This document shows positions 3,025 to 20,149 of a stretch of DNA of 20,292 nucleotides, piece by piece; the first letter of the stretch is position 1; every line of letters starts with the position of its first letter. The notes below the pieces were generated by a model. It was given only the letters and a program-made list of their open reading frames with translations. It was not told the DNA's origin and made no database searches. A program made the position numbers and the translations under genes. Source of the DNA: a virus. Where the stretch lies: the IMG/VR virus record IMGVR_UViG_3300020419_000103, positions 1 to 20,292 of that record; one strand, given 5' to 3'.

Positions 3025-6000
3025 TAGAAGAATCCTCCATCGATGGAGTTAGTCCATTGCGGAACTCCAGAAGCGTTTGTAGTCATTACATAGTTAGAAG
3101 TAGTTAGGAATCCAACTGTGCTTGCTGTACTTACCAACCTACCATCATCTTCAAAGTAAGCAACACCGTTAGGACCACTATATCCTATACCTGTGCTTCC
3201 CCCTTGATCTGAGCGATAGTATAATCCTTGTTTAAATGTAGCATATCCTACGACATGTACATTGTCTTGAATAGTAACTTGACCAGCAGCAGAATCTAGA
3301 ACTAACTCTCCACTATTAGTTTCAATCTTAGTTGCAGAGCTACCAGCACCAATCTTGATATTAGAAACTGTAGTAACACCAGTAATAACAACTTCGTTAA
3401 ATGTACTTATTCCAGTTACATTAATGTTTCTACCATTAACTTCATCATAAACAACATCACCTATAACATTTAAGTTACCAGCGATAAAGATATCATCTTG
3501 GAATGTTGCTATACCAACGAAAGTTGAGAAACCAGCGAAGGTCATTTCAGTAGCAATACCAGTTTGAATTCTGGCATTAGTTATTGCAAAGTTAGTTGCT
3601 AAACCAGCAGTAATCTTAGCGTCAAGAATGTCAGCATCAGCAAGGTCTACTGCATTAGCAGTTACTACACCAGCAGTTGCTGTTATAGAAGAACCAATTG
3701 CAACTTCACCTTTATAAACACCGTTATCCTTAAAGGTAACAATACCAAGCATCTCTGAACCAGATGCTCTAACAATCAATCTATCACCGATACCAGAAGC
3801 TGAACTATCAGCATACATTAACTTAAGTGTCTTATTATCGACAGTTAAGAAGTCGCTGCTACCAGCAGCAGTCTGTACACTAAAGTAATCACTTCTTATT
3901 TGAAGTCTGCTATATGTTGCATTACCATTTGCATGAGAGAGGACTGTATGACCTCTGTTAGCAAATCCATCTGTATCAACATGTTCAACAGTTAAGTCAT
4001 CATCTGAACCAATTCTTACCTTAACATTATCTGGGAGATCTGTGTGACTGTTAAGTCCAACAGGAGCATTAATTGTTAATGATCCATCACCAACAGTCTG
4101 ACCAACTGTGAATGCTGTAGCAAGACCTGTAGCGATCCTAGCATCTACTACATCAAGGTTATTAACATCTGCACTACTACTAACTGTTACAACGCCTGTA
4201 GCGTTGATTCTTTCAAATCTAGCAGTGTCTAAAACATCTAATCTATCTCTAGGTGAGTCAGTACGAATACCAACTTTCTGGTTAGCGTCAACACGCCATG
4301 CTTCTACATTCTCAGTGCTAGCTACAATAGTACCATCACTACCACTATCAGTTAAAGCAATAGATGTATCACCCTTCTGGAATGCATCCAGTTGAATAGT
4401 TGTAGCAGTTAAGATACCTAAGACATTGACATCACCAGTAATATTAACATCACCAGCACCAGCAGGGTCAATATTAATATCACCTGAGGTTGATTCAATA
4501 TTATTACCAGCAATCTGGATATTACCAAATGTACCACTAGTAGGTGTTACCTGACTACTATTACCAGAAGAATCTGAGATAGTTAGATTAGATAAAGCCT
4601 GTAAACTTGTTACCTGTTGAGAGAATGCAACTGTACCATTTTCTTGGTCAACATAGAATGCATCACCAACTCTAAAGTCTCCTTTCTGATCAATACTAAC
4701 GAATGATATGTCACCGTTATTAACTTGAGTGACTTCGTTTGCTTGGATTGCTGTGTTAGGATCGTTATTAATATTTCCACCAGCACCAACATGGTTGAAA
4801 TTAAGTGCAAAACATCTTAGTGTTACACCATCACCATCAGCAACAACACCCTTCTGACCGTACTCAACAGCACAACCCACAGAACGCATGTCAGCACCAA
4901 ACTGACTGTAATCTGCTAAGGTTATCCTAGTAGCAGTTCCTACTCCACTGTTAGGTTGAGTAATTCTGATGTCCTGAGTAACTACTGTATTATCAGTAGC
5001 AGTTGAGACACCGTTAGTTCCGTTAAAGTTAACTAGTAATGAAGTCTTTCTATTACCAGCAGCCTCAGCACTATTACCATAAGTATATGCACCATCTGGG
5101 AATGAATGCAATCCTTTCTGAACAAATACATCATCTATCCAACCTGTATGTGCATTAGCAGCACCATCAAAGTCAGCACCAATTACAATAGGTTTTTGTG
5201 TACCAAGATCAGTAGTATATGATGTTGCTTCAGCTCTCTTAGCACCATTAGAATATGCTATTAATTTTGTACCTAACTTAGCAACAGCAATGTGATGCCA
5301 TGCACCAGTTGTAATACCTGCACTAGTAGCCGATAATGCTGTAGTGTTTCCAACACGAACATCATATTCATTACCTCTGAAGGCAATACTTAAACCACTT
5401 GCATCAGTTCCTGAATCCCTAAAGTCAATAGCAGTAGCACTAGTTAATCCAGTAGTGTTTCTGTAAACCCAGAAACCAACAGCAAATTCTCCTGTACCAA
5501 ATCCAAACTGATCGTGAGATGCTGCACTAACAGAATCGTTAGTACCATCTAATTTAAGTGACGCACTACCAAACTTCTTAACACTGGTATCTAATTGTGC
5601 ATTACCATTAAATGTAAGTGTTTTAGCAGTTCTATTTTGAAGAATTTCAAATCCAAGTTGCTTACCACTTACATCAAGATATGTACCATCGTAGTTAGCT
5701 ACAACAGCAGTACCTAATCCAGTAACACCATCAGTGTCATAGTAAGTAATTGTATTACCAATGCCTAGCATTGATGTTGTAGTAATACCAGTTAATCTTA
5801 ATCTTGTCTTACCAGCAGATGCAATACCGAGTGTACCAGATTCACCTCTAATACCTTCAGAAGCAAAGTATGTGAAACAGTTAAGGAACTCAACACGAGC
5901 TCCGTTGGTCATTACTAGACCTTTAGCATTAGGTACAATGAAGGTTGCTTCATTGAATAACATTGCTGCTTCAATAGATCCTTCTTGAACCTGAGAACCA

Positions 6001-9000
6001 TCGATATATGCACCAGCACCAGCTATGTAAGAAGATGGAGCTGCATCAGCACTGTTAAATCCGTATAAATCATCTGCAGTTTGATTAGTACCTTTGTTTA
6101 ATACAGTTATACGCTGTACATAAGGTGATCTAGTAGTAATTGCAATACCAGGTTCATACTTAAATGCGTATCCTTCATTTGCTGATGTGTTGAAGAACAT
6201 GTCAGCGATAGTTAAGTCTTCAACGACTGTTCTATCATTAAGTAGGAAACAATCCTTTTGCTTAGTAGCACTTGTTGGAACAATCTTAGTAGCACGAAGA
6301 CCGTTACCTTTAACAGTTAATCCTGCAGGAACATATAATGGGAATGATTCTTCATAAACACCACCACCAATATTCAATGTTTCATTAACACCTATGATTG
6401 TAGGAGAGACATTAACATTAATTCTAAATGAAGTTGAATCAAGTACTGTAACAGCAGTTGTTACACCAGCAATAGGATCACTACCAGCACGAGGATAAGT
6501 CTTACTTGCAGTATTACCATCCATCGAACAGGTGAATGATAATGAATTATTATCAAGTGTTATAGTATCAGCAGTTGATAATCCGTGAGCAGAAGCAAAT
6601 GATAGAACTAACTCTCCAGTATGCTGGTTGTAAGTTGCTCCATTAGGAGACTTCTGATTACCTGACTCAGCACCACTCTGAACATTAACTGCGTTTGTAG
6701 CAGTTCCTCCATTATAAGTGTGATCATACTTATTAGAAATTCTTGATAAAGCGTATTTAATCGATTTGAACGGTCTTTCTCTAGTACGACCACGAGAAGC
6801 ATCGTAAGCATCAAGACCATGAGTATCAACAAACCATAAATCATCAGCAGGGTTGATTGTAGCAATACCAATCTGAGCAGGTTCTTTCCATGACAAAGTA
6901 TTGTCATCATTAGTACTCAACATGTGTTGAGTGTTAATACCAACAACTCCTGTGGAGTCATATAGTGAAGTTACATAACCAGAATTGATCTTAGCTGTTA
7001 GTGCATCAAAGTTTGTAACATCAATCGTAGTGATAGATGCAGCAGTACCAACAATATCAGTTATGATACCAGAGGTAATTTTAACATCCTTAAGATCTGC
7101 AGTCTCAGTATCAAATACTGTTATAGTTGCATATGTACCAACTTGAGATGTAATAATACCAGCAGTTATCTTAACATCTTGAAGATCTGCTGTCTCTGTG
7201 TCAAATGTTGTAATAGTTGCATAAGTACCAACTATTGATGTAATAACACCAGCAGTGATCTTAGCATTAACGATGTCACCTTCTGTGGCATCGATAGTTG
7301 TAATGGTTGCTGCAGTACCAACAATGTCAGTAACAGCAACTCCTGTAAAGCTTAAATTATCAGCACTTAAAGTTGTTACATGTGCTGTAGTAATAGTTGC
7401 ATAAGTACCAACCAATGATGTGACAACACCAGCAGTGATCTTAGCATTTACTATATCGCCTTCCGTAGCATCAATCGTAGTGATTGTAGCAGCAGTACCA
7501 ACGATATCAGTAATGATACCAGATGTAATCTTAACATCCTTAAGGTCTGCAACCTCGGTATCAAAAGTTGTTATAGTTGCATAAACACCAACTGTTGAAT
7601 CAACACTTAGATCATCAACATAAGCAACACCATCAATATGAATATCTTTCCACTGTTGAGTAGCAGTACCAATACTATAGGTATCGTCATCATCAGGGAT
7701 AAAGTTGGAATCAATATCAGCATTGAATACGACATTATCTGTTACAGAATCACCAAGACCGATTGTACCGCCATTAAAGGTTACATTACCAGTGAAGGTA
7801 GTTGCACCACCAACTCTAAGATCATTCGTAATATGAACATCTTGAATTGTTGAGTATGTACCAACTAGTGATGTAACAACACCAGCAGTGATCTTAGCAT
7901 TAACTATGTCACCTTCTGTAGCATCTATAGTTGTGATTGTTGCTGCTGTACCAACGATATCAGTAATGATACCAGCAGTAATCTTAACATCTTTAAGATC
8001 GGCAGTCTCAGTGTCAAATACTGTTATAGTTGCATAAGTACCAACCTGAGAGGTAATGATACCTGCAGTGATCTTAGCATTAACTATATCACCTTCTGTT
8101 GCATCAATTGTTGTTATAGTCGCTGCAGTACCAACAATATCAGTAATGATACCAGAGGTAATTTTAACTTGGTTAAGGTCTGCAACCTCTGTATCAAAAT
8201 TTGTAATAGTTGCATAGATACCAGTTATTGATGTAACAACACCAGCAACGATATTACCATGTATAATATCAGCTACAGTTGCATCAATCGTAGTTATGGT
8301 AGCAGCAGTACCAACGATATCAGTAATGATACCTGCAGTGATCTTAACATCTCTAAGATCTGCTGTTTCAGTGTCAAATACTGTTATGGTTGCATAAGTA
8401 CCAACTTGTGAAGTGATGATACCAGAAGTTATCTTGACATCATTAAGGTCAGCAGTTTCTGTATCAAATACAGTGATGGTAGCATAAGTACCAACTTGAG
8501 AGGTAATGATACCAGCAGTAACATATGCTGCTTCTATACCAAGATCATTAACATCTAACTGAGGAACAGTAGCAACACCAGTGATATTGACATCACCATC
8601 CACATCGAGAAGAGCTGTTGGCGTGGTAGTTCCCACCCCGACCCAACCGTCGCTATTACCTGAAACCCACTTAACATCACCTGAACCAATAACTAATTGA
8701 TCATCTTGATCTGGATATCTAACATCTTGTCCTTTACCAATGATAACATTGTTATTACCAGTATTATGAGTACCAGCAGAATTACCAATAGCAATATTAT
8801 CACTACCATAAACATTGTATAAAGTAAACGCACCAATAGCAATATTATTGCTCTGGTTAGTTGATATACCAGCACCCCATAGTGCTTCTCTACCTATACC
8901 AATATTCTGATTATGATCTTCTTTACCACTGTTTGTAGTAATACCTGACCTTACGACTAAGAATCCATAAGTATCAGTTAATCCAATACTACCAGTTGAT

Positions 9001-10244
9001 AAGTAAATGGCATCATTTACATCAGTTAATAATCCGAAATTATCCTGACCTTTAACTTTAAACTGACTACCAATTAATTTTGCTAGATGTGCATTAGTAC
9101 AAGTACCAATATTAAATGTTAAATTGCCAGTAACTGCATTATTAATAATTCCAAGGTCACCAAGATTAGCAATTGCTATTGCCCAATCACCACCAGTTAT
9201 GTTAGAATAGCTATCTGTAGTACCATATACTCTGTAAGCATATGGATCATTAGATAATTGACTACCATCAGAGAATGAAATAGTGCTTGCATCACCAGTC
9301 TCACCGTAAGTGATAACTGATTGAGAACCTAAATCTTGTGCTACCTTATCACCAATATAGATGTTATGGGAACCTTCTGCCTCTTGACCAGCATAATGTC
9401 CTAAGAAAAGGTTGGATTCTGCTTTGGTTTGACCACCCTTCTGGAAGGCACTGTGACCAATAGCAATATTTCTCTTAGTGTTATTACCTAAACCAGCTTG
9501 TTGACCTGCGAAGTTACCAATAAAGAACCCCTGACGATCACTACCATCAGTTTCTTGTTCACCTGCTTCTCTACCAATTCTTATTAACTGCGTTCTGAAG
9601 TCTACATTATCTTCAATAGTTGCTATACCAGTAACCGTAAGGTTCTTAGTAGTAGATGCATGACTTACATTGATCTGCTCAAACTGTGCAGATGTAGAAT
9701 TAAAATCGTTATATGTAGCACCAACACCAGCAAGAGCACTGATAATACCTACCTTACTTTGTAGGTTAAGAGTATCAGTAATATCAGTTACATAAAGAGT
9801 GGGTGCAGTTGCAACACCAGTTATATTCCAATTTCTTGCATTTACTTCATCGTATGATAAATCTCCTGTGACAGATAAATCTCCAGCAACGGTCAAATTA
9901 CCCGATACAGTGGCTGCAGCACCTACTAGAAGGTCAGTAGCTACACTCCAGGTGTCAATCTGTCCTGATGGGTTAAGAATAACCGCCTTAGATCCAGTTG
10001 GTTTACCAAAGTCTGCAGGGTTCTCTGGCAGCATATCGGTGTAGTATTCACCACCGATTGCTATTGGTGCAGAAGTATTACCGTCTGGATGACCAATATA
10101 TAATTTCTTATAAGACTTACCAGCACCTACATTAGATACATCGTAGGTGTATACTAATTCACCAAACGAGACACCAGTACCAACTGGTGCTGCGGTTGGA
10201 GGAGAGGTTCCTTGCGTCCTCTTTATCAGAATCGTTGCAGCCAT
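3024..10244 (-). CDS. Giant modular tail fibre / adhesin-like structural protein (2406 aa)
   Basis: The N-terminus (ATILIKRTQGTSPP, then SFGELVYTYD and KLYIGHPDGN) matches the IKR...GELAY...LYIG opening common in phage fibres. Modules follow: YadA-head-like NIAIG repeats at about 237-304 and 444-528; a VGVGTTTPTALLDVDG segment near 530-550 (echoed near 1985); a 30-residue repeat array at about 578-1089; a probable parallel beta-helix starting with LWFVDTHGLDAYD and RERPFKSIKYAL at about 1132-1470; a LamG/concanavalin-like domain at about 1546-1711 (FAVGFWVYRN, GAWHHIAVAK, GWIDDVFV); then GIAT-type strands to the end (SIDGGFF). No C-terminal autoprotease signature is evident. It lies where T4 has wac and gp12, so a host-contact fibre or whisker-like role is inferred. 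Start: ATG in a TAATG overlap with GGAGGGG 7 nt upstream. Confidence 0.82.
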   Translation of the reverse strand: MAATILIKRTQGTSPPTAAPVGTGVSFGELVYTYDVSNVGAGKSYKKLYIGHPDGNTSAPIAIGGEYYTDMLPENPADFGKPTGSKAVILNPSGQIDTWSVATDLLVGAAATVSGNLTVAGDLSVTGDLSYDEVNARNWNITGVATAPTLYVTDITDTLNLQSKVGIISALAGVGATYNDFNSTSAQFEQINVSHASTTKNLTVTGIATIEDNVDFRTQLIRIGREAGEQETDGSDRQGFFIGNFAGQQAGLGNNTKRNIAIGHSAFQKGGQTKAESNLFLGHYAGQEAEGSHNIYIGDKVAQDLGSQSVITYGETGDASTISFSDGSQLSNDPYAYRVYGTTDSYSNITGGDWAIAIANLGDLGIINNAVTGNLTFNIGTCTNAHLAKLIGSQFKVKGQDNFGLLTDVNDAIYLSTGSIGLTDTYGFLVVRSGITTNSGKEDHNQNIGIGREALWGAGISTNQSNNIAIGAFTLYNVYGSDNIAIGNSAGTHNTGNNNVIIGKGQDVRYPDQDDQLVIGSGDVKWVSGNSDGWVGVGTTTPTALLDVDGDVNITGVATVPQLDVNDLGIEAAYVTAGIITSQVGTYATITVFDTETADLNDVKITSGIITSQVGTYATITVFDTETADLRDVKITAGIITDIVGTAATITTIDATVADIIHGNIVAGVVTSITGIYATITNFDTEVADLNQVKITSGIITDIVGTAATITTIDATEGDIVNAKITAGIITSQVGTYATITVFDTETADLKDVKITAGIITDIVGTAATITTIDATEGDIVNAKITAGVVTSLVGTYSTIQDVHITNDLRVGGATTFTGNVTFNGGTIGLGDSVTDNVVFNADIDSNFIPDDDDTYSIGTATQQWKDIHIDGVAYVDDLSVDSTVGVYATITTFDTEVADLKDVKITSGIITDIVGTAATITTIDATEGDIVNAKITAGVVTSLVGTYATITTAHVTTLSADNLSFTGVAVTDIVGTAATITTIDATEGDIVNAKITAGVITSIVGTYATITTFDTETADLQDVKITAGIITSQVGTYATITVFDTETADLKDVKITSGIITDIVGTAASITTIDVTNFDALTAKINSGYVTSLYDSTGVVGINTQHMLSTNDDNTLSWKEPAQIGIATINPADDLWFVDTHGLDAYDASRGRTRERPFKSIKYALSRISNKYDHTYNGGTATNAVNVQSGAESGNQKSPNGATYNQHTGELVLSFASAHGLSTADTITLDNNSLSFTCSMDGNTASKTYPRAGSDPIAGVTTAVTVLDSTSFRINVNVSPTIIGVNETLNIGGGVYEESFPLYVPAGLTVKGNGLRATKIVPTSATKQKDCFLLNDRTVVEDLTIADMFFNTSANEGYAFKYEPGIAITTRSPYVQRITVLNKGTNQTADDLYGFNSADAAPSSYIAGAGAYIDGSQVQEGSIEAAMLFNEATFIVPNAKGLVMTNGARVEFLNCFTYFASEGIRGESGTLGIASAGKTRLRLTGITTTSMLGIGNTITYYDTDGVTGLGTAVVANYDGTYLDVSGKQLGFEILQNRTAKTLTFNGNAQLDTSVKKFGSASLKLDGTNDSVSAASHDQFGFGTGEFAVGFWVYRNTTGLTSATAIDFRDSGTDASGLSIAFRGNEYDVRVGNTTALSATSAGITTGAWHHIAVAKLGTKLIAYSNGAKRAEATSYTTDLGTQKPIVIGADFDGAANAHTGWIDDVFVQKGLHSFPDGAYTYGNSAEAAGNRKTSLLVNFNGTNGVSTATDNTVVTQDIRITQPNSGVGTATRITLADYSQFGADMRSVGCAVEYGQKGVVADGDGVTLRCFALNFNHVGAGGNINNDPNTAIQANEVTQVNNGDISFVSIDQKGDFRVGDAFYVDQENGTVAFSQQVTSLQALSNLTISDSSGNSSQVTPTSGTFGNIQIAGNNIESTSGDINIDPAGAGDVNITGDVNVLGILTATTIQLDAFQKGDTSIALTDSGSDGTIVASTENVEAWRVDANQKVGIRTDSPRDRLDVLDTARFERINATGVVTVSSSADVNNLDVVDARIATGLATAFTVGQTVGDGSLTINAPVGLNSHTDLPDNVKVRIGSDDDLTVEHVDTDGFANRGHTVLSHANGNATYSRLQIRSDYFSVQTAAGSSDFLTVDNKTLKLMYADSSASGIGDRLIVRASGSEMLGIVTFKDNGVYKGEVAIGSSITATAGVVTANAVDLADADILDAKITAGLATNFAITNARIQTGIATEMTFAGFSTFVGIATFQDDIFIAGNLNVIGDVVYDEVNGRNINVTGISTFNEVVITGVTTVSNIKIGAGSSATKIETNSGELVLDSAAGQVTIQDNVHVVGYATFKQGLYYRSDQGGSTGIGYSGPNGVAYFEDDGRLVSTASTVGFLTTSNYVMTTNASGVPQWTNSIDGGFF
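3033..3038 (-). promoter_or_regulatory. Ribosome binding site of gp13 inside the fibre gene 3' end
   Basis: GGAGGA on the minus strand, 8 nt before the gp13 ATG at 3024-3022. It is made by the two glycine codons of the upstream fibre C-terminus (DGGFF-stop). One sequence therefore sets both the fibre tail and gp13 translation. Confidence 0.8.
5114..5609 (-). other. LamG/concanavalin A-like domain in the fibre
   Basis: Residues about 1546-1711. The order of strands KFGSASLKLDGTNDSVS, FAVGFWVYRN, GAWHHIAVAKLGTKLIAYSN, KPIVIGADFDG and GWIDDVFVQKG is that of LamG/Laminin-G-3 jelly-roll domains. In other proteins these bind glycans or host surface molecules, which makes this the most likely receptor-binding module of the fibre. 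Specificity cannot be read from the sequence. Confidence 0.8.
6979..8513 (-). repeat. 90-bp in-frame repeat array in the fibre gene
   Basis: A conserved Gly codon opens each unit and falls at exact 90-nt steps: 8513, 8423, 8333, 8243, 8153, 8063, 7973 and 7883, and then, after an insertion, 7520 and 7430, and 7250, 7160, 7070 and 6980. Units translate to two alternating types, GIITSQVGTYATITVFDTE followed by TADLKDVKITA, and GIITDIVGTAATITTIDATE followed by GDIVNAKITA. Between the two blocks at about 7593-7832 is an unrelated insert of about 80 residues, and one unit near 7341 carries an extra residue. The regular hydrophobic and Thr pattern suggests a beta-helical or beta-spiral shaft. Confidence 0.92.
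7593..7832 (-). other. Non-repeat insert within the fibre array (DDDDTYSIG/WKDIHIDG module)
   Basis: This stretch of about 80 codons interrupts the 30-residue repeats. It contains NDLRVGGATTFTGNVTFNGG, then IPDDDDTYSIGTATQQWKDI. The D-x-x-Y-x-I/L-G-x-x-x-x-x-W-K-D-I pattern recurs in phage tail fibres, usually as a turn between shaft segments. Boundaries are approximate. Confidence 0.65.
8660..9535 (-). other. Two YadA-head-like repeat blocks in the fibre
   Basis: Two groups of short units (about residues 237-304 and 444-528) carry the pattern N-I-A-I-G-x-x-A-x, for example RNIAIGHSAFQKGG, NIAIGAFTLYNVYG and DNIAIGNSAGTHNTG. This is the left-handed beta-roll repeat of trimeric autotransporter heads, also used in phage fibres. 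They are separated by about 140 residues of ordinary beta-rich sequence. Confidence 0.7.
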
Positions 10245-10459
10245 TAGTATTCCCCTCCATCAACTGTGGTGGATGGTAAAGTTGTTTGTGTTATAAATTT
10301 TGCGGATGCTGAGTCATAGACCAGAAAACTACCGTTTGTTAAAGCACTTGCATTAACATCCGAAAGTAAAACTAGTTTACCTCCTCCTCCACCGCCCCCT
10401 AAAGAGCCGCTGGCAATAACCTTAACTTGGCTGCCAGTACCAATTCGTAAAGATGGCAT
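10244..10459 (-). CDS. Small Gly-rich structural protein resembling a fibre tip (71 aa)
   Basis: A 71-residue frame coupled on both sides by one-base TAATG overlaps: its start overlaps the end of the 111-residue gene and its stop overlaps the start of the giant fibre. After a short beta segment (SLRIGTGSQVKVIASGS) comes a run of seven glycines (20-26). The pattern LVLLSDVNASALTNGSFLVYD and AKFITQTTL follows, ending in VDGGEY. The second half looks like LSDV...LVYD...KFV tip or strand segments frequent in marine phage fibres, and its end mirrors the C-terminus of the 2406-residue fibre (IDGGFF). It may be a minor fibre subunit or connector, but no function is established. A weak AGGGG lies about 10 nt upstream of the ATG. 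Confidence 0.78.
   Translation of the reverse strand: MPSLRIGTGSQVKVIASGSLGGGGGGGKLVLLSDVNASALTNGSFLVYDSASAKFITQTTLPSTTVDGGEY
10252..10258 (-). promoter_or_regulatory. Ribosome binding site of the giant fibre gene
   Basis: GGAGGGG on the minus strand, 7 nt upstream of the ATG at 10244-10242. It lies in the Gly-Gly codons of the upstream 71-residue protein (DGGEY-stop). It is one of the strongest purine-rich sites in the window and fixes the fibre start. Confidence 0.8.
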
Positions 10460-10794
10460 TACCTTGTTACCCCTGCTCTAACATTGACCATTCCTTCAAC
10501 GACTTTTACCTTGCTTGTTCCGTCTTGCAAAACAACATCGTAAAGATAACGGCCAGGTTTAATATCGGTTGTTATAGTAGATGCCATAGAGATTTGAATT
10601 TCTCCATCCGTGGCACTGGATACAGTCGATGCAAAAGACACAGCAGTTGTGCTTCCTGCCCATTTACGCAATTGCGATGTTACCGTGAAACCTGCTAGAT
10701 TTAGGGTAGTGTTATTATCGTTATCACCAAGAGAAAATAAATGTTCAAAATCAGTACCCGATTCAATCTGCAAATTTGCGACATATACTGCCAT
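10459..10794 (-). CDS. Small beta-rich virion protein, prophage upper-baseplate-like (111 aa)
   Basis: The layout VANLQIESGTDFEHLFSLGD, LNLAGFTVTSQLRKWAGS, DGEIQISMASTITTDIKPGR, YLYDVVLQDGTSKVKVVEG and VRAGVTR is that of a widespread family of about 100-residue phage proteins. Members have a gap after 'LxGYTxxxQIR', then 'LPAGRYxYDVxxTxxxGxVxRLxEG', and resemble the N-terminal beta-sandwich of upper baseplate proteins (BppU-like). In such phages it attaches receptor-binding parts to the baseplate; the same role is inferred here because it directly precedes a tip-like gene and the fibre. It follows a 20-nt gap after the coiled-coil gene, the only real gap downstream of the gp8 promoter. No clear Shine-Dalgarno precedes the ATG. 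Confidence 0.82.
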   Translation of the reverse strand: MAVYVANLQIESGTDFEHLFSLGDNDNNTTLNLAGFTVTSQLRKWAGSTTAVSFASTVSSATDGEIQISMASTITTDIKPGRYLYDVVLQDGTSKVKVVEGMVNVRAGVTR

Positions 10795-10814: not shown

Positions 10815-11003
10815 CTATAAGGTATTTAGTTGCTTTATCTCTGTCAGAACTTCTTGCAATACTTGTGTTAGTTGACTCATTTTCATATCCAATCGATCTA
10901 TATCATTTCTTATAATTTCAAGATCACCCAATTCTGCTACTTTTGCTGGTACACATTCGTCTCCATGAAGGAATCTTAAGTGTTCAATGTGTGGATCTCT
11001 CAT
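10815..11003 (-). CDS. Coiled-coil mini-protein B (62 aa)
   Basis: I do not recognise a named family. The N-terminal 25 residues (MRDPHIEHLRFLHGDECVPA) contain His/Asp/Cys and may form a small folded head. From residue 28 to 59 hydrophobic residues fall at 28, 31, 35, 38, 42, 45, 49, 52, 56 and 59, an unbroken a/d heptad pattern, so a helical coiled coil is very likely. The start overlaps the stop of the previous small gene by 4 nt (ATGA). Placement between baseplate and fibre genes suggests a minor virion part, a connector or an assembly chaperone; T4 gp57A is a small coiled-coil fibre chaperone, but no sequence relation is claimed. Confidence 0.8.
   Translation of the reverse strand: MRDPHIEHLRFLHGDECVPAKVAELGDLEIIRNDIDRLDMKMSQLTQVLQEVLTEIKQLNTL
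10823..10829 (-). promoter_or_regulatory. Possible secondary late promoter before the 111-aa gene
   Basis: CTAAATA followed by CC on the minus strand, inside the last codons of coiled-coil protein B and about 28 nt upstream of the ATG at 10794. It shares TAAATACC with the strong box upstream of gp8 but lacks a full TATAAATA. It coincides with the second largest gap of the operon, hence the tentative call. Confidence 0.3.
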
Positions 11004-11197
11004 AGTTTTTCTGTAATTTTAGCAAGCATTTCTTTTATCTCAGAAATCTCTTGCTTCATAGTATCTAGTTCTTCTTTTTGTGTAGACCTTTTTTCTCTTG
11101 CCTTGACATATGCTGAATAACCAGAGCTATCATCGTTTATGATAGCTCCTGTCTTTTCATCTCTATAGAGATTTGAGTAACCTTCAACCCTTATCAT
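11000..11197 (-). CDS. Coiled-coil mini-protein A (65 aa)
   Basis: The N-terminal segment MIRVEGYSNLYRDEKTGAII followed by NDDSSGYSAYVKAR resembles small uncharacterised proteins in marine T4-like phages; this is from memory of the pattern, not from a search. The C-terminal half is a charged helix with hydrophobic residues at 44, 47, 51, 54, 58, 61 and 65, a clean heptad pattern. It overlaps the giant upstream gene by 4 nt (ATGA) and the next small gene by 4 nt, which implies coupled translation. No Shine-Dalgarno is visible before its ATG. The role is unknown; a structural or assembly helper for the neighbouring giant proteins is an inference. Confidence 0.82.
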   Translation of the reverse strand: MIRVEGYSNLYRDEKTGAIINDDSSGYSAYVKAREKRSTQKEELDTMKQEISEIKEMLAKITEKL

Positions 11198-14100
11198 GCT
11201 AATGCTAACGCTCTAATGTTCTTAAGAACAGGAACTTCAGCTTGGTTAGTACCGTTAAATACAACCTTAATAACAAATCCAGTATAAGGTTCTAGATCGT
11301 TAATACTATACTGATATTCTCTGAACTCTCCACCAGGATTTATGAATTTATCAGGACGGCCATCGTTCTTTGCAGTATCGATTGGCGTATCCCCAAACCC
11401 ATTACCAGTGGTATCAACGCTATTTAGATAGCCAGGGAACAATACAAATTTCTGATCAACTTCACTAGCATCACCTCTAATCAAACTATACAACACCCTG
11501 AAGTCAGTAGATGCAGGTCTAAATGCATCAAATATAACTTGCAACGAAGTTGCTGGTTGTTTGATAAGAATTGGTTTAGAAACATAGTATGAAGTATGTT
11601 GATCACCAAATAGAACATTAGCTCTTGGATCTGAAGCATACGCATCATCTCCAATTGGTTTATTAAGTCTATTAGAAGAGAACTTAAATGCCATTGTATC
11701 TAAACAAATCATTGGAGAACTATGGAAGTTTCCTCCGTTATTCATTGCAACTCTAGCAGTTAAAGATCTATTCCTAAAGAGATTAGTTAACCTTGCATTT
11801 TCATTTGCTTCAGAAGCAACTATTCTAGTGGATGAAAGTTTTGTTGGTTGGTTGAGAACATAACTCTCAAATCCTTGATCAACAAATGAGGCTTCTTCAC
11901 CATCAATACTAGTTCCACTAACAGTTCTAACACTTAAGTTAGCAGTATCGGTAGGACCAGGTACTGTTATGTCAAATACTGGTGTAATAGTATCATACTG
12001 TATATTCTTAGAGGCATGAACATGAGCTCCACCGCCATGAATATCAGCATTGAATGAAAGTTGTGGTTGGGATAGACCTGAGATGTCGGTAGTTCTACCT
12101 TCTCTGTCAATCTTAATCATAAAGTCATCCATATTTCTACCAGTAACCTCAACACTATGCTCAGTATTGATCTTACCTAGACCAATTCCAGCAAATTCAT
12201 ACTTTTGGATATTAGATCCTTGAGCATGGTTGATAGATTGAGTGTTATTTACACCTCTAGTAATACCACTTAGAGTATTAACTCCAACAGCAGTGTAAGA
12301 GATAATTTCATTATTCAAAATAGCATAACCTGTGTTAGCAGCACTAACAATAACTCCTTCATAAACATTGTATCCAGTACTGTCTGCTATAGAAATACTA
12401 TTTGAGGTAGAATTAACTATAGTAGCAGTTGTTGTTGGAAGAGTATTTGGAGATACTCCACTAATCGCAACTTTATTACCAGTACCATACATGCCATGAT
12501 TGAAGTATGATAGTTTTGCATATTCTCCAGTATAAACGCTACCAGTTTCATCGTATCTAGTAACATCTAAACCAGAATCAATAAGAGTTCCAAGGTCATG
12601 ATAGTAATTAACACTAGCTGCATTACCAAATTCTTCTGCTTGGACATTTGTTAGATACAATGTATCCAAACCACCAAGAGAATTAATACCAATTCTAGCT
12701 CCAGAACCACTACCACTCATTTCAGCAGTAACAATTCCTACAATATCACCAACTTGATAACCTTGACCATCATCTTGAATAGTAACAGCAGTAACACCAC
12801 TATTACCAGTACCAACAGTTACACCTAATTTTAATCCAGCACCTTGACCTGTAATTGCATATGTTGCAACAGCAGCAGATGATGGAGTTCCATAGTTGAG
12901 ACCATTTGTTGAGATACCAACTGCAAGAGTACCACCAGTTTTAACTGGTCCACCCGTTGATTCGATATATCCATATCGATAATTTGCAGAAGCATCACCA
13001 ACTTTTCTACCAGGAACAAATACAGTACCAATAAGACCAGCATTAGTTGTTGTAGTGATTCCAAGTGCAGCTTTCTTAGGAAGCGCATGAATTGGATTCT
13101 TATTCAATACTGGTAAGATACCATTATTTGCTCTAATAGGTGGGTTCTGGAATGTTACTACAGCATCTTGATGAATGAACTCTGCTCTATACAACTTGAA
13201 GCACAAGTCTTCAAACTGACATGGAGTCCATGTAGAAGCATTCTGTGATTTAAACAGAGATCCAACTGAGAACTGGTTAGCATATACTCTACCAGCAGCA
13301 CTTGGTAAATCCTGAGCATTAAGCGCAGTCTGTCCCATCTCTGCTGTAAATACCTCATAGGTGTTCGTAGGAGCACCTACAACGATAGCATACTCTGTAG
13401 CAGGTTCTAAGTATATTGGAGAACTAAATGTCGCTTTAGTTGCCACTGAAGCATCAGTAGACAAATTAATATCATTAGATGTTAAAATTACCCTAGCATC
13501 TGGAGACACCAATTTTGTAGTAGGTGTTCCTAATTCCATTGTCCTTAACTCTACAAAAGCAGGGACTTCTGGATCTAGCATAGTTGCAAAGTAAACATCA
13601 ACAGAAGTAATATATGCACCATATTGGTCAACCTTAAATGATTGTGCCAATGGGTCATCATTCTCTTCAGCTTGAGGAGGAGCAGGTACTGGGAACGGAA
13701 CAGGTTGAATAATAGTTCTAGTATTATCAACAACCTGTGTAACAGTATTATCAATAGTTTGCTGTACAGTAACAGTTCTATCAATAGTCCTTCTATCAAC
13801 AAATGTTCTTGTTCTGTCAATAACCCTTGTATTATTAATAATAACGGGGGCAGGAGGTGGTGGTGGTGGGGGTGGTCTTCGGTTTACGAAGGTCAGACTT
13901 ATATCTCTCTGTATTGTCGTAGTTTCTAGTGTCGTAACACTAACATCAGTTTGTACAATTCTTGTAGTTCCAACGGCAGTGTAGATTGCTTGAGCAGCTG
14001 AAATAGCAGTGCTTCCTCTTAATCCAGTAGCATTGACAGAACTAGAAGATACCTTAAATTCTCTTTCACCAGTTCTTACTCTAGCAAGTGGAGCAGGAGA

Positions 14101-17100
14101 AGCAAATGGATCTCTAACCCATACACATGCTCTTAAATCTCCATAGTTGTCAGAGAATAAACCAAGATCAGCAATAGTTGCTTGAGCACCGCTACTTTCT
14201 CCAGATACCACAGTACCTATTGGAAGATATCCAAAGAAATCTCCTTGAGGTGCAGAAGCTAAAGCAGTCGTATCTATGTTAATAACAGTAGAACCTTGTG
14301 AGTATGCTACAGGTAATGTTTCCTCTCTGTCTAAAGGATTATGCTCATAAGACATTGTAGGAGCAGCAAATGGTCCTTTCTTATGATCAGGTCTACAAAG
14401 TCTGAAACGATATGTTTCACCATTAACTAATGCAGTAATAGTTTCACCAACAGTAAATGCACCAACAACATTACTAATACCTATAACTTTAGGAACTACA
14501 TCAACATTGCCAAGTTCATCAAAGAATGTAAAGAATCTAGCATTTGGTCTTAAACCATTTACATCATATTCTATATTTCTAGATCTAATAAATGGATCAA
14601 ATTCTTCACTAGCAATAAAAGTATTTCTAGATGTTATATCATCTCTTTCTACTTTCTGTACACTATCCTGAGTACTTGCTTGCAATTCATCATCACCAAA
14701 ACCACCATCAACATTAGTTACCGCTACTCTTGGATCAATTGAAGTTCTTCTAATAACTTGTGTTTGTAGTGTTTGTGTCCTATGAGTATTAATCCAGTTA
14801 TCACTAGTTGGACTTAATTTTAAATCACCAATATAACTATAGACTAAAAATGGGTTAAGATTTTCTACTCTAGTTGCAAAATTCTGTTCAACAAATGCAG
14901 TTTCTTTATAATCTAATGTAATCATTCTACCTGTCTTTCTTGCCTTACCATCCAATAAAGCAAAGTCCTGACTAAAATCTAATGTCTCAGGTGGTTCTTG
15001 TGTAGCAGGTAATACCTGCATATCAATAGAACTGAGATCAGTTAAAGGACGCATATGTCCTCTAGTAGAATCTATATCAATAGGAGATGATACATCAACA
15101 AAAGTTCTAGACTTCAATGAATCTGCAAAGAAACCACTCTTAAATCTATCAAGACCATCAGCATCTTTAACTTGTAAAGTAGCAACTTTCTGTTCTAATA
15201 GAGATAGTGATGTAACATTTTCTAGATTCTCAACTCTATCTTCAATAGCACCGATATCACGCATTGTGTAACGGCGATTATCTATTAAGAATACCCTAGC
15301 ATTTGAAGTTTGGTAAAGGAATGGTGGCCACGCAATCGTAGCTAAAACCATAGAACCAGGATCATCAGCAGGTGGTACAGGTTTTACAGATGGTTCACCT
15401 TGATGAACTATTATATTACCTGTTGATTTAAGAAGAACTTTATCCATTCTTCCCAAATAATGCTTATACTTGAACCTAGAATTCTCATTTGGTGTTGGAA
15501 TTCTATTACCTGATTGTATTGTGTCTCTATTTGATGGGAAGAATGGAGATACAGCAGCACTAGATGGAGTAAATTCTACAACCCTAGGTCTGAAATCAAG
15601 AGTATCAGTTGCTCTCTTACTCGATTTACCTATACCAGGAATATCTTTCTTAAATCTTTCTGCATCATAACTGTTGACAGTAAATACATCTCCAGTATCA
15701 GCAGATGGAATCTCATACCTATCAAGAACAACTAGAAGTTTTCTAGATGGAATATAACCATCATTGATTCTTAATAGTCTAGAATAGTCGTAATACTGTT
15801 CTCTTTGACCTTGATCTAAAGTAAATGCATCTGTTACATCATTATATTTTCCAGGAGTTGTACCCTGTAATGTGGCAGATGAATTAGATTCTTGGAATAA
15901 AAGAGTTTCTAAAAGTTGGAATTTATCTGTAGTTTTATATACAATACTAATACTGCTAGTACCAGCATTAACAGAAACTATAATAGCAACAGAGTTACTA
16001 TTCTCACCTACAATGGTTTCACCAACAATCGCATTTTGGAAAATAGGATCTGTAGAGCTAAAAACTAATTGATCAAGAATTGGTTTATTTTTATCTAAAG
16101 ATTCATAAACAGCAGCAACTTTTGCTACATCTGGGAAGTTTAAACAAATTTCTTCATCCTGAACTCTTATACCATAAAGACCACTAGGAGTTAATCCATC
16201 ATCAACACTACTTCCAGTTGTAGTTCCAGATGAATCTTTAGATGAATATACTATTTCAATTTCTTGACTTCTTTTATATTCTTTAACTTTACTCTTAATA
16301 TTACTCTTAGCAACTGTTACATTAACTTTAATGTTAGATTCAGAGAATGCCAATCCACTAAAAGTTAAAACATCATCAGTAACTGTAACTTGATCTTCAG
16401 TGATAGTTGCAACTAAACCACTACTATATTGTACTTGATATCTTTCTTGATCAAATGAAACAAAATTACAATCATCAATAGTAAGAGAACTACTATTAAC
16501 AACTAAAGTTCCATTTGCATCAGTTGATTCACCAGTTACTTGATCTGAAAGAATTAACTGAGCTCCAGTAAAATCAATATCAGCAATATGTTTCTGTGGA
16601 AGTGGTAAATATAAACCAGCAGCATCCTCATTACTTAACTGTTGCTCACCTATAAAGATTGGACCTTCATACTGAGAACCTGGAAGAGATCCAGTATAAA
16701 GATTGGGGTTAGTTGTTAATGCAGCAACTCTCATGCTACCACCATCATTGGCAACATATGATACTACATTACGATTAGGTAAAGATTGACCTGGTCGTCT
16801 ATAGATTATAATATCTCCAGGTTTAAATCTTTCAAATGTTCTACCTACACAAGTTACATCACCATTAGTAGCAATTCTAACAGGATCATCTCCTCTTAAA
16901 CCATAAGGTATTTTTTCATTTAATACTTTCTTAGCATAGAATGTATTTGACTGTTGAACATTCTCAACATTATTCATATTGTAAGCAATTACCTTATCAA
17001 CAACTCTAGATAAGTTTTCATTACTTCTAAACTTAATTCTTTCTCCTGCTTGGAAATGACCAGATACTTGAGTTAAAGTGATAGTACTACTTCCAGCACC

Positions 17101-18567
17101 AGCAGCTATTGTATATCCAGTTGCGCCACTTTCTGCACCTTCAACATACGCAGATTTAACAACCTCATCATTAGATACATTGTCATTAACAAATAACTTT
17201 GTATATAATTGAACATCATAAAGATACGCATCAAATTCAGTTGAATTATCTTTATACTTAGCATCAGATAATGCAAAGTTATATACCTTGGCATCTCCAA
17301 TCTTTTCACTACTAATACCACTTTGAAGATCAATAGGATTTCTAAATGTTGTTATACCTTGTACACCATCAAGTTTAAGTCTATTTCCTATTCTAAATGA
17401 GAACGACTCTTCTATTTTATCTGAAGTAGTTCTTGGTTTTACACAATCAATGGTTTCACCCATTGTTTCAAATTCATATCCTTTAACATAGGCAGTACCT
17501 GGTGAAATCCTAACACAAGCAAGATCGTCAGAGGGAGTATTACCTTGTCTTGTAGATTCTGTTGCATAGTAAATACCCTCACTTCCCATTCTATCATTTA
17601 AACTATCAAGAACAGTAACAAAGAATGGAGTTGTTGTATAGTCTCCAGACTCATCAAAAGTTCTTTTAGCAAAATAATCTCTAATTAAATTATACTGACT
17701 TTCCCTATTAATTTGCTTTTCAATATTACCAGCTCTTATTCTTATAAGTTCAATAAAATCAGTATCATCAAAATCGTCAGTAAACTTTTTAGCTAGAACT
17801 AGATCTATCTTTAATCTATCTGCACCTGGTGCTGCATAGTTTGAAAATCCTTTAGCGTTATCATATAGTGCAGCGTCTTCTTTAGCATTAATTGTTTTTT
17901 CTACAACCTGAAGTCCAACTCTATAAAATGGTTGATTATCATATTGATCCAAAATAAGAGTTTGTTGATTAACTCTTACAAAAGAACCTCTTACAAAATA
18001 TACACCAGATTGAATATTAGCAGCAGAACCTGATAGACAAGAATCCTGTGATATTGTCGAAGCAATAGATGAACCAGTATTTAATGTTGTATTGCCATAA
18101 GTAACAGGTTCTTCTAATATTAGTAATTCAGAATCAGAGAAGAAATCAAAAGATCCACTAGGACCAGGTGAACGATATTTTACATATAATGTTGGATCTG
18201 ATGATATAGAAGTTGATGCTGGAATAAAATTAATAATTTTTGCAGTAATACCTGAAGTCTGTCCTTTTATTCTTTTTCCTACAAGATCTTTTATATAAAC
18301 TTCAACATCAGTTCCTAAATGTGTCGCATCTAATCTAACAGCAAAATAATTTCCATCGTAAGTTACACCACCAGGGATAACAACAGATCCCTCTTTAAAC
18401 ATATGACTACCAAATTGTTCAATTTGGTTCTGCATTATAGATTGCAGACTCGTTAACTCACGAGCTTGTACAGGGAATCCTGGTTTGAATAGAACTCTAT
18501 GATAATTGTCTGTCCTGTTAAAGTCATCGTAGTAAGGACTTATATTCAGGTTAGTCTGTTGTGGCAT
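11194..18567 (-). CDS. Giant DUF4815-like baseplate/virion structural protein (2457 aa)
   Basis: The N-terminus (LNISPYYDDFNRTDNYHRVL, then FKPGFPVQARELTSLQSIMQNQIEQFG and an EGSVVIPGG strand) is the signature opening of DUF4815-type phage structural proteins. The middle holds several G-E-x-I-x-G-x-x-S-G-A strands (near 97-107, 845-905, 1366-1388 and 1446-1466). A run of eight prolines at 1565-1572 is followed by Thr/Arg/Val repeats (RVIDRTRTFVDRRTIDRT) and then DPLAQSFKVD near 1638, a conserved entry to the second half. A GQGY strand lies near 1933. The C-terminus (TGFVIKVVFNGTNQAEVP) is also beta-rich. It follows gp8 by 4 nt, where T4 has gp9 and gp10, so a baseplate wedge or fibre-anchoring role is likely. 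It could also be a gp7 or gp10 equivalent; sequence alone does not decide. Confidence 0.85.
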   Translation of the reverse strand: MPQQTNLNISPYYDDFNRTDNYHRVLFKPGFPVQARELTSLQSIMQNQIEQFGSHMFKEGSVVIPGGVTYDGNYFAVRLDATHLGTDVEVYIKDLVGKRIKGQTSGITAKIINFIPASTSISSDPTLYVKYRSPGPSGSFDFFSDSELLILEEPVTYGNTTLNTGSSIASTISQDSCLSGSAANIQSGVYFVRGSFVRVNQQTLILDQYDNQPFYRVGLQVVEKTINAKEDAALYDNAKGFSNYAAPGADRLKIDLVLAKKFTDDFDDTDFIELIRIRAGNIEKQINRESQYNLIRDYFAKRTFDESGDYTTTPFFVTVLDSLNDRMGSEGIYYATESTRQGNTPSDDLACVRISPGTAYVKGYEFETMGETIDCVKPRTTSDKIEESFSFRIGNRLKLDGVQGITTFRNPIDLQSGISSEKIGDAKVYNFALSDAKYKDNSTEFDAYLYDVQLYTKLFVNDNVSNDEVVKSAYVEGAESGATGYTIAAGAGSSTITLTQVSGHFQAGERIKFRSNENLSRVVDKVIAYNMNNVENVQQSNTFYAKKVLNEKIPYGLRGDDPVRIATNGDVTCVGRTFERFKPGDIIIYRRPGQSLPNRNVVSYVANDGGSMRVAALTTNPNLYTGSLPGSQYEGPIFIGEQQLSNEDAAGLYLPLPQKHIADIDFTGAQLILSDQVTGESTDANGTLVVNSSSLTIDDCNFVSFDQERYQVQYSSGLVATITEDQVTVTDDVLTFSGLAFSESNIKVNVTVAKSNIKSKVKEYKRSQEIEIVYSSKDSSGTTTGSSVDDGLTPSGLYGIRVQDEEICLNFPDVAKVAAVYESLDKNKPILDQLVFSSTDPIFQNAIVGETIVGENSNSVAIIVSVNAGTSSISIVYKTTDKFQLLETLLFQESNSSATLQGTTPGKYNDVTDAFTLDQGQREQYYDYSRLLRINDGYIPSRKLLVVLDRYEIPSADTGDVFTVNSYDAERFKKDIPGIGKSSKRATDTLDFRPRVVEFTPSSAAVSPFFPSNRDTIQSGNRIPTPNENSRFKYKHYLGRMDKVLLKSTGNIIVHQGEPSVKPVPPADDPGSMVLATIAWPPFLYQTSNARVFLIDNRRYTMRDIGAIEDRVENLENVTSLSLLEQKVATLQVKDADGLDRFKSGFFADSLKSRTFVDVSSPIDIDSTRGHMRPLTDLSSIDMQVLPATQEPPETLDFSQDFALLDGKARKTGRMITLDYKETAFVEQNFATRVENLNPFLVYSYIGDLKLSPTSDNWINTHRTQTLQTQVIRRTSIDPRVAVTNVDGGFGDDELQASTQDSVQKVERDDITSRNTFIASEEFDPFIRSRNIEYDVNGLRPNARFFTFFDELGNVDVVPKVIGISNVVGAFTVGETITALVNGETYRFRLCRPDHKKGPFAAPTMSYEHNPLDREETLPVAYSQGSTVINIDTTALASAPQGDFFGYLPIGTVVSGESSGAQATIADLGLFSDNYGDLRACVWVRDPFASPAPLARVRTGEREFKVSSSSVNATGLRGSTAISAAQAIYTAVGTTRIVQTDVSVTTLETTTIQRDISLTFVNRRPPPPPPPPAPVIINNTRVIDRTRTFVDRRTIDRTVTVQQTIDNTVTQVVDNTRTIIQPVPFPVPAPPQAEENDDPLAQSFKVDQYGAYITSVDVYFATMLDPEVPAFVELRTMELGTPTTKLVSPDARVILTSNDINLSTDASVATKATFSSPIYLEPATEYAIVVGAPTNTYEVFTAEMGQTALNAQDLPSAAGRVYANQFSVGSLFKSQNASTWTPCQFEDLCFKLYRAEFIHQDAVVTFQNPPIRANNGILPVLNKNPIHALPKKAALGITTTTNAGLIGTVFVPGRKVGDASANYRYGYIESTGGPVKTGGTLAVGISTNGLNYGTPSSAAVATYAITGQGAGLKLGVTVGTGNSGVTAVTIQDDGQGYQVGDIVGIVTAEMSGSGSGARIGINSLGGLDTLYLTNVQAEEFGNAASVNYYHDLGTLIDSGLDVTRYDETGSVYTGEYAKLSYFNHGMYGTGNKVAISGVSPNTLPTTTATIVNSTSNSISIADSTGYNVYEGVIVSAANTGYAILNNEIISYTAVGVNTLSGITRGVNNTQSINHAQGSNIQKYEFAGIGLGKINTEHSVEVTGRNMDDFMIKIDREGRTTDISGLSQPQLSFNADIHGGGAHVHASKNIQYDTITPVFDITVPGPTDTANLSVRTVSGTSIDGEEASFVDQGFESYVLNQPTKLSSTRIVASEANENARLTNLFRNRSLTARVAMNNGGNFHSSPMICLDTMAFKFSSNRLNKPIGDDAYASDPRANVLFGDQHTSYYVSKPILIKQPATSLQVIFDAFRPASTDFRVLYSLIRGDASEVDQKFVLFPGYLNSVDTTGNGFGDTPIDTAKNDGRPDKFINPGGEFREYQYSINDLEPYTGFVIKVVFNGTNQAEVPVLKNIRALALA
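13660..13875 (-). other. Polyproline hinge and Thr/Arg repeat in the giant baseplate protein
   Basis: Eight consecutive proline codons (residues 1565-1572) plus APVIINNT lead into about 45 residues of short units around R/D-x-T-x-T-V/I (RVIDRTRTFVDRRTIDRTVT, VQQTIDNTVTQVVDNTRTII), ending with PVPFPVPAPP just before the DPLAQSF segment. The two Pro-rich flanks around a repetitive beta-prone stretch suggest an extended linker between two halves of the protein. Confidence 0.75.
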
Positions 18568-18571
18568 CGGT

Positions 18572-20149
18572 TTAGAATTCTAATACGATTTTAATGTCTT
18601 CTTTTTGTCGAACATTTCTTGAGATAGCAGGTCTATTGTCAAGATAGATTATTTCGCCAGTCCTTTTATTTATCTCACCGTCAGCAACACCATTTGTAAA
18701 CTGAACGCCTAGATCAACCACCTTACCAGCAGGTGTTGTTGTTGAGATACCACTAAAAGCAGCATCTACATTGACACTGAAAGCAGTACTAGTGACTGCA
18801 TTAGCAGATGCCCCAGATTGAAAATCAATAACAGGGGACTGTGATGCAACCTCTTTACTGTCAGTAGCATCATATGTTGATTGGTTATAAACTAAACTTC
18901 TATCTTGGAAGTACTTAATAACCATAGTGTCAATATCATAAGAAGCAACATACCCTCTAGCAGTACCAACTCCTGTTATGTTCTGCTCAATAGCAGTTCC
19001 AATACCAAGAGCTTGTGAAGTATCTCCAGTAAACTTGATCGATTTTAGTGAAGAAAATTCAGAGGATTGTAAGTAATTAGTACCAGCAACACCAATTGCA
19101 GTTGGGTTTCTAATTAATCCAACTTGTGCAAATCTAGTATCAGAAGCAAAATCATAAGAAGATGCATCAAATCTAGTATAAATTAGAACTTTATCAGTAC
19201 CTAATTCTTTGTATGCGTTGAATCCATGTCCATTTGAGGGAGGGATGATCGGAGTGAGCTTAGCAAACTTTGTAGTAGAACCATTGATAGAAGAAAGATC
19301 AACCCTTCCATAACTATACCCCTTACCACCGTTAGTAACTTGTGCAGAAATAATTTGACCTTGAGTATTAGTTAGTACCCTAACTTTAGCTCCAGTGCCA
19401 TCACCGATAACATCAACTTCTATGGGACTTGATAGGAAATTATATCCTATACCAGCCTCATCAATTGATATTACTTTAATCTGATTATTATTTGTTTCAG
19501 AATCTCCGTTCTCTCTAACAACTTTAACATCTGAATCATTTGTTGTTTCCCATTCATTAGGAACCGCAATATATTCAGTAGAGTCAAATTTTACGATATC
19601 CGCAGGAGGAACCGTAAACATATACTTCCAAAGATAAGTGTCACCACTTACACCAGCAGCAGATGGTTCAAGGTCGGTAAAAGTTGGTTCATCTAAAGAT
19701 GCGCTTGCAATAGTTGAAATACCAGCAGAACCATTATTGATACAAACATAGACTCTATAGTCTTTGTTCATAACATAGTAGTTTGCTGAATAAAGTCTAC
19801 TTGAGTTAGAAACTAGAGAACGATTAGTCGTGCTATAATCATGACGGTACATATCATATGATGTACCCTTAGTCCAAGTAACTTTTCTAATCAACCTTCT
19901 AACATCACCAGGAAAAACTTTCCTGCCAAATAACATAGTATCGTATACATGGTTATTGTAATTGATACTATCAACAGGTGAAGGCGGTTGAATAGTTGTA
20001 CTATTCCAAGTATCTGTTCTTCCGAATCCCGATACCGTAGGATTTGCTAATCCAAGAAAAGCATAGTAAGAGTTATTCCCACTAGTAACATCATCCATGA
20101 AGTTATTAGCGTTAATAATCCTAAACTGATCGGTTATAATTGCTGCCAT
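18572..20149 (-). CDS. 8: Baseplate wedge protein gp8-like
   Basis: 525 residues against 334 in T4. Shared landmarks with T4 gp8 are in order: YYAFLGLANPTVSGFGRTDTW (T4 has FITFGRSEPW), PPSPVDSI near 54-61, the MLFGRKVFPGDVRRLIRKVTW strand, GDTYLWKYMFTVPPADIVKF (T4 GYVWEYLFEIPPD), EYIAVPNEW, and the C-terminal TGEIIYLDNRPAISRNVRQK ending in DIKIVLEF (T4 GEMIYMENRPPI and INILFTF). The extra length lies between residues about 225 and 480 and includes GxGY modules near 231 and 274. gp8 forms a dimer in each wedge of the baseplate. A perfect late-promoter box lies 34 nt upstream of the start. The next gene starts 4 nt after the stop. The start codon is the first ATG after that promoter. Confidence 0.92.
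   Translation of the reverse strand: MAAIITDQFRIINANNFMDDVTSGNNSYYAFLGLANPTVSGFGRTDTWNSTTIQPPSPVDSINYNNHVYDTMLFGRKVFPGDVRRLIRKVTWTKGTSYDMYRHDYSTTNRSLVSNSSRLYSANYYVMNKDYRVYVCINNGSAGISTIASASLDEPTFTDLEPSAAGVSGDTYLWKYMFTVPPADIVKFDSTEYIAVPNEWETTNDSDVKVVRENGDSETNNNQIKVISIDEAGIGYNFLSSPIEVDVIGDGTGAKVRVLTNTQGQIISAQVTNGGKGYSYGRVDLSSINGSTTKFAKLTPIIPPSNGHGFNAYKELGTDKVLIYTRFDASSYDFASDTRFAQVGLIRNPTAIGVAGTNYLQSSEFSSLKSIKFTGDTSQALGIGTAIEQNITGVGTARGYVASYDIDTMVIKYFQDRSLVYNQSTYDATDSKEVASQSPVIDFQSGASANAVTSTAFSVNVDAAFSGISTTTPAGKVVDLGVQFTNGVADGEINKRTGEIIYLDNRPAISRNVRQKEDIKIVLEF

Follow-up and report, generated by a model that had tools for sequence, protein, structure and literature searches.

The locus and its two small genes

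What do two short genes, each ending in a heptad pattern and lodged behind a giant structural gene, contribute to a T4-like cyanophage? The window, meaning the whole stretch of 20,292 nucleotides that was analysed, is a 20.3-kb record of an ocean virus with a Kyanoviridae-type (T4-like cyanophage) structural and tail cluster, in which all genes lie on the minus strand in the order gp8, a 2457-aa giant, A, B, a 111-aa LtfC-like protein, a 71-aa protein, a 2406-aa giant, gp13, gp14 and gp15. The features on which the argument depends are as follows.

18572..20149, minus strand: gp8-like baseplate wedge protein (context)
11194..18567, minus strand: giant DUF4815/VrlC baseplate protein, 2457 aa, proposed client of A (phrog_358 E 0; PF16075 E 8.9e-56)
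11194..11197, minus strand: ATGA overlap of the DUF4815 gene stop and the A start
11000..11197, minus strand: gene A, 65 aa, N-terminal hairpin motif and C-terminal coiled coil (PHROG 473 / T4-GC 112)
11135..11188, minus strand: conserved motif, A residues 4-21 (alignment of 88 sequences; AF2 strands)
11003..11068, minus strand: heptad coiled coil, A residues 44-65 (conservation, shuffles, AF2)
11000..11003, minus strand: ATGA overlap of the A stop and the B start
10815..11003, minus strand: gene B, 62 aa, lineage-restricted small coiled-coil protein
10827..10922, minus strand: heptad coiled coil, B residues 28-59 (shuffles, AF2, heptad-sized indels)
10459..10794, minus strand: LtfC-like beta-sandwich protein, 111 aa, adjoining B in B loci (phrog_3304 E 2e-29)
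10244..10459, minus strand: small protein, 71 aa, PHROG 13853, neighbour gene
3024..10244, minus strand: second giant, 2406 aa, repeat-rich and fibre-like ('baseplate wedge' PHROGs)

An initial annotation made from the letters alone had described A and B as proteins of 65 and 62 residues with heptads at positions 44-65 and 28-59, coupled by ATGA overlaps to the giant (11194-11197) and to one another (11000-11003); reading of the ORFs reproduces the coordinates, the heptad positions and both overlaps exactly. It placed the pair between two giants, which do flank it, although the LtfC-like and 71-aa genes also separate B from the second.

Several neighbouring genes have features of their own. 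The LtfC Pfam match of the 111-aa protein (E 3.7e-5) falls under the curated cut-off; in DT57C, an LtfC ring anchors fibres via strand donation (PMC10713586), and the LtfC-like protein of a T4-like cyanophage may anchor the second giant. Within that giant lies a concanavalin/laminin-G-like domain (PF13385, E 5e-13; window 5121-5549), possibly a sugar-binding module. The start of the 71-aa protein (window 10244-10459), of VRVGQxxAVK type, resembles those of fibre-like proteins elsewhere (L082 1180-3360; L089 9735-10376), a likeness at the sequence level that suggests a possible fusion or fission with the second giant. At 552 aa (window 543-2201), the gp14-like neck protein is long, and its residues 175-452, which resemble parts of baseplate or virion structural proteins (PHROGs 701 and 708), are perhaps an added decoration domain.

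Conserved coils and a conserved motif

The heptad core of A consists of L44, M47, I51, I54, L58, I61 and L65, and that of B of L28, I31, I35, L38, M42, L45, L49, V52, I56 and L59. Runs as long occurred in 17 of 20,000 same-residue shuffles for A and 14 of 20,000 for B, but heptad runs of 9-11 also turn up in certain spurious hydrophobic ORFs of the window; the shuffle test is therefore weak by itself, and conservation was relied on instead. Throughout 88 sequences the core a and d columns of A remain hydrophobic, and the variants in helix length differ by exactly seven residues, one A homologue (L017) being seven longer and the B of two loci (L117 and L119) seven shorter. With dN/dS between 0.05 and 0.28 for both, A and B are real genes under purifying selection. 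That the coils are functionless accidents of composition in short lysine- and glutamate-rich ORFs might be argued from the shortness of the genes and from the long heptad runs in other frames of the window, yet this selection contradicts it, as do the invariant motif, the heptad-sized indels and the very wide conservation and synteny, and it can practically be dismissed.

Conservation in A is concentrated at the other end of the protein, its first 21 residues being conserved far above the coil in the 88 sequences. Residues 4-21 form the motif V-E-G-[HY]-x-N-L-[YF]-R-D-E-K-T-G-A-I-I-N, in which V4, G6 and R12 are present in 88/88 sequences, D13 and G17 in 87/88, and A18, I19 and N21 are nearly invariant. 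The AF2 model of A has two short strands (10-12 and 19-21) followed by a helix over 24-64 (mean pLDDT 90), and that of B a short helix (4-13) followed by a long one (23-61; mean pLDDT 86).

A family that follows the DUF4815 giant

The match of A to PHROG 473 (E 8.6e-20, residues 1-62) spans most of the protein, and the family, which is T4-GC 112 in P-SSM2 and S-PM2, is present in 309 phage records and at least 598 IMG/VR stretches. By tblastn, the end of the giant lies directly upstream of A in 134 of 139 distinct metagenomic loci; three of the remaining five show an upstream DUF4815 on ORF reading, and two are too short upstream. A follows a DUF4815/VrlC giant in every one of the 137 metagenomic loci with enough sequence. 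The same order, DUF4815 and then a small ORF, was found in 14 diverse isolates, two of them with a split DUF4815 gene: in XG4 and SAC12B, DUF4815 is apparently two consecutive ORFs, with the small partner behind the second (L106 3459-8996; L107 8977-12509).

Isolate homologues of A stand behind DUF4815 in phages of Vibrio, Salmonella, Serratia, Acinetobacter, Pseudoalteromonas, Stenotrophomonas, Rhizobium and Desulfovibrio, and in Ackermannviridae, Pootjesviridae, a Menderavirus and, more weakly, Herelleviridae this position is occupied by small ORFs that share both motif and coil. A profile of the N-terminal part only, with the coil removed, recovered five of seven distant ORFs from outside the Herelleviridae with E-values between 4e-11 and 0.005; out of 2400 shuffles, not one reached any of the seven. 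In the Herelleviridae sampled (phages of Listeria, Enterococcus, Lysinibacillus, Staphylococcus and Lactobacillus), the ORF behind DUF4815 encodes 52-73 aa, belongs to PHROG 1074 and has a recognisable R-D-x-x-S-G-A motif and a coil; hhalign aligned A with these ORFs on the motif (probability 75%, E 2.5e-5). Since the single-sequence evidence is marginal, the small Herelleviridae ORFs are graded as probable counterparts of A. PHROGs 473 and 4322, and probably 1074, are accordingly joined here as a single family of DUF4815 partners.

The limits of the family were sought in several ways. The A profile, used to look for fusions of A to the giant, matched no ORF longer than 107 aa, and the A pattern, run against bacterial and archaeal genomes, picked up no relative. 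A PDB fold search returned nothing, and PDB searches that used A or B as single sequences or as profiles returned generic coiled coils only, while the probable members of the family that a viral fold library yielded, from pf16, phiM12, RL2RES and cyanophages, had E-values between 0.002 and 0.5, with no hit below 0.001. Phage 812 ORF67 was rejected as a relative, its match being weak (E 0.17) and coil-driven and the gene a different one from the DUF4815 neighbour; matches to Pfam COMP, DivIC and RIN1 and to a PHROG 'Arc-like repressor' were weak or under the cut-off and probably coil-driven.

Two records have a missing or wrong annotation at this position. In Serratia phage phiMAM1, an unannotated A homologue lies between VrlC and the next gene (L096 13903-14130). 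In Synechococcus phage Sf-CH8, the homologue (L100 19407-19571), whose coil looks truncated, is labelled N-acetylmuramoyl-L-alanine amidase, an evident misannotation.

Absence of the small protein from published virion proteomes

The initial annotation had proposed virion proteomics of relatives as the way to distinguish a chaperone, absent from particles, from a structural part. In cyanophage S-CREM2 (PMC10665884), the DUF4815 giant gp124 was detected with 450 peptides and 46% coverage, along with gp123, gp126, gp127 and gp128; the A homologue gp125 (88 aa, phrog_473 E 5.6e-17; peptide example NEETGLILNTDK) is absent from the list, which includes other proteins of 78-84 aa. In cyanophage S-SZBM1 (PMC9146016), the giant _203 has 53 peptides, and the A homologue _202 (82 aa, E 5.9e-27) is not among the 30 proteins given, one of which is of 9 kDa. 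For Salmonella phage Sajous1 (PMC10892097), VriC gp140 has 311 spectra and the A homologue gp141 is absent from the list. The same proteome gives two spectra to a 'gp142 putative virion structural protein', whereas GenBank has gp142 as hypothetical and gp141 as putative structural; this case is ambiguous, because gp142 is possibly gp141 under another number. In Listeria phage CKA15 (PMC12282133), the 128-kDa protein CKA15_125 has 62 peptides and 79% coverage, and its expected 8.6-kDa partner, between 125 and the RBP, is absent from the list, the identity of gene _126 being inferred from gene order and molecular weights.

The small proteins of all four phages have several usable tryptic peptides each, but mass spectrometry under-detects small proteins, and each non-detection is weak singly. 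The 52-aa counterpart in phage 812-type phages likewise has no matching PDB chain, though ORF65 and ORF67 are modelled. The four proteomes and the PDB search all point the same way, towards absence of the A type from the particle, which is the outcome expected of a chaperone. A-family proteins are named 'virion structural protein' in RefSeq, and a search for an experiment underlying this label found none. The published proteomes speak against a structural role, and many records may bear this label in error.

A proposed chaperone of the DUF4815 trimer

The likely client of A is better characterised than A itself. The giant matches ORF65 of Staphylococcus phage 812, a DUF4815 protein modelled in 15 PDB entries (9euf and others), in four collinear stretches (E 4.1e-38). 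A relative of ORF65, gp106 of Listeria phage A511, forms trimeric baseplate pyramids (PMC9863714, PMC11406892), and a 2024 review of the Ackermannviridae connects VriC both with prong-like structures and with these proteins of A511 and phi812 (PMC11721090).

We propose that A serves the DUF4815 (VrlC) trimer as a dedicated assembly chaperone and is not retained in the virion, a reading to which we assign a probability of roughly two in three. It is read as a non-virion protein because the proteomes with a strong giant omit the A type, and because the 812-type counterpart has no PDB chain. A is made from the next, overlapping start codon after the giant, and its motif R-D-x-x-[ST]-G-A-I-[IV]-N, which the model renders as a pair of short strands, would dock on the beta-rich giant. 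Several copies would then zip together via their coils, probably three, to match the trimeric A511 gp106, although this stoichiometry is a guess; the zipped copies could keep the giant chains in register or help them fold so, and would depart before or at incorporation of the giant into the baseplate.

A could instead be a minor structural cap or anchor, kept on the virion DUF4815 trimer at, for example, the pyramid tip, and aiding binding or attachment. The RefSeq name would fit this, and A511 gp107 is also proposed as a part of the pyramid (PMC9863714). Furthermore, LtfA of DT57C, which is anchored by strand donation (PMC10713586), has the same layout, with a coil after two short strands; this likeness between A and the LtfA of DT57C/T5, with its short N-terminal strands and trimeric coil, is accompanied by an LtfC-like gene adjoining B, but LtfA is a long fibre and A a protein of 65 aa. 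Nor is A strictly paired with LtfC, no LtfC-like gene being detected in 22 of 118 loci, such as that of P-SSM2. A retained cap is rendered somewhat improbable by the four virion proteomes that omit the A type while the giant ranks among the best-detected proteins, and by the lack of a matching PDB chain though the DUF4815 protein of phage 812 is modelled in 15 entries.

Searches of PHROGs and Pfam matched A to no known fibre-chaperone family. T4 gp57A is a small coiled-coil chaperone of trimeric tail fibres that is not part of the virion. The resemblance of A to it would lie in the proposed working only, an analogy of action rather than a claim of kinship, and the two differ in gene position and in the conserved hairpin motif of A. 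The closer comparison is with A511 gp107 and its relatives in PHROG 1074, which are likewise small ORFs directly behind DUF4815/VrlC with the R-D-x-x-S-G-A motif and then a coil, and whose relative in CKA15 is likewise omitted from the virion proteome; these proteins, however, do not have most of the first ~10 residues of A (VEGHxNL), their coil length differs and their single-sequence similarity is marginal. A511 gp107 is already named a 'putative chaperone' (PMC11406892), and with this label on the probable Herelleviridae counterpart the remark that these genes had no described function was only half right. Membership of A in PHROG 473 is clear, and the gene position is the same across PHROGs 473 and 4322 (T4-GC 112; cyanophages and Ackermannviridae), whose name implies a structural role that the published virion proteomes, two from cyanophages and one from an Ackermannviridae phage, do not support.

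B as a lineage-specific addition

B was found in 17 loci, always directly behind A and never behind the giant itself, and in 16 of the 118 A loci with enough downstream sequence. Elsewhere its slot is either empty or taken by a protein of PHROG 27081 (other cyanophages) or of PHROG 580 (S-SZBM1). The PHROG 27081 protein, of 57-60 aa (LFEYEKHSR...KLYxKQQE), occupies the slot in many cyanophages (L089 9188-9364, L021, L034, L065, L086 and others), and has no Pfam match over the cut-off.

The initial annotation had read A and B as a heteromeric coiled coil working as one unit and looked to conserved co-occurrence for support. The overlapping genes, the clean heptads in both and the finding of B only beside A would suit such a unit, but most phages have A without B, the features of A are unchanged where B is missing, unrelated genes fill the slot elsewhere, and direct alignment of A with B gave no match. 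A heteromer is therefore very unlikely; what survives of that proposal is a small coiled-coil accessory of the giant, in the case of A most likely a chaperone.

B may alternatively be a diverged duplicate of an A or gp107-type gene, serving the second giant or the LtfC-like cassette, with one helper per fibre protein. Its only matches in the phage collection below E 1 are to the Listeria gp107-type gene (E 0.4, 12/12 records), which is also the first hit of the B-family profile outside the family (E 0.0011) and shares with B an RDPH...L[RK]F start. Set against this, an unrelated coil scores nearly as well in the same profile search (E 0.01), hhalign of B with the Herelleviridae set reaches only 32%, and the start of B is modelled as a helix rather than strands. 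Common descent of B and gp107 is only suggestive because of that competing coil and the hhalign value. The LtfC-like and 71-aa-type genes are both present in 16/16 B loci versus 44/102 others (Fisher p 1e-5, uncorrected for relatedness), an enrichment that hints that B serves this cassette and that would also suit the duplicate. Descent of B by duplication is possible but doubtful; we regard B as an additional small coiled-coil protein, specific to its lineage and broadly similar in kind to A, perhaps serving the LtfC/second-fibre cassette. The broadest combination of these ideas, in which one universal non-virion motif-plus-coil chaperone operates in DUF4815 prong/pyramid contractile phages of several families, with a diverged copy, B, for the second giant, is unlikely as a whole.

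Implications

Joining PHROGs 473, 4322 and probably 1074 into one family is a useful step. The analysis gives an unexplained gene, present in more than 300 sequenced phages, a specific client and a testable job. B marks a variable slot in which cyanophages carry differing small genes. As host-contact parts, the VrlC/DUF4815 proteins of marine, enterobacterial and Gram-positive phages are hard to place, and the proposed role of A suggests that, when these baseplate proteins are expressed, the small gene behind them would be worth co-expressing.
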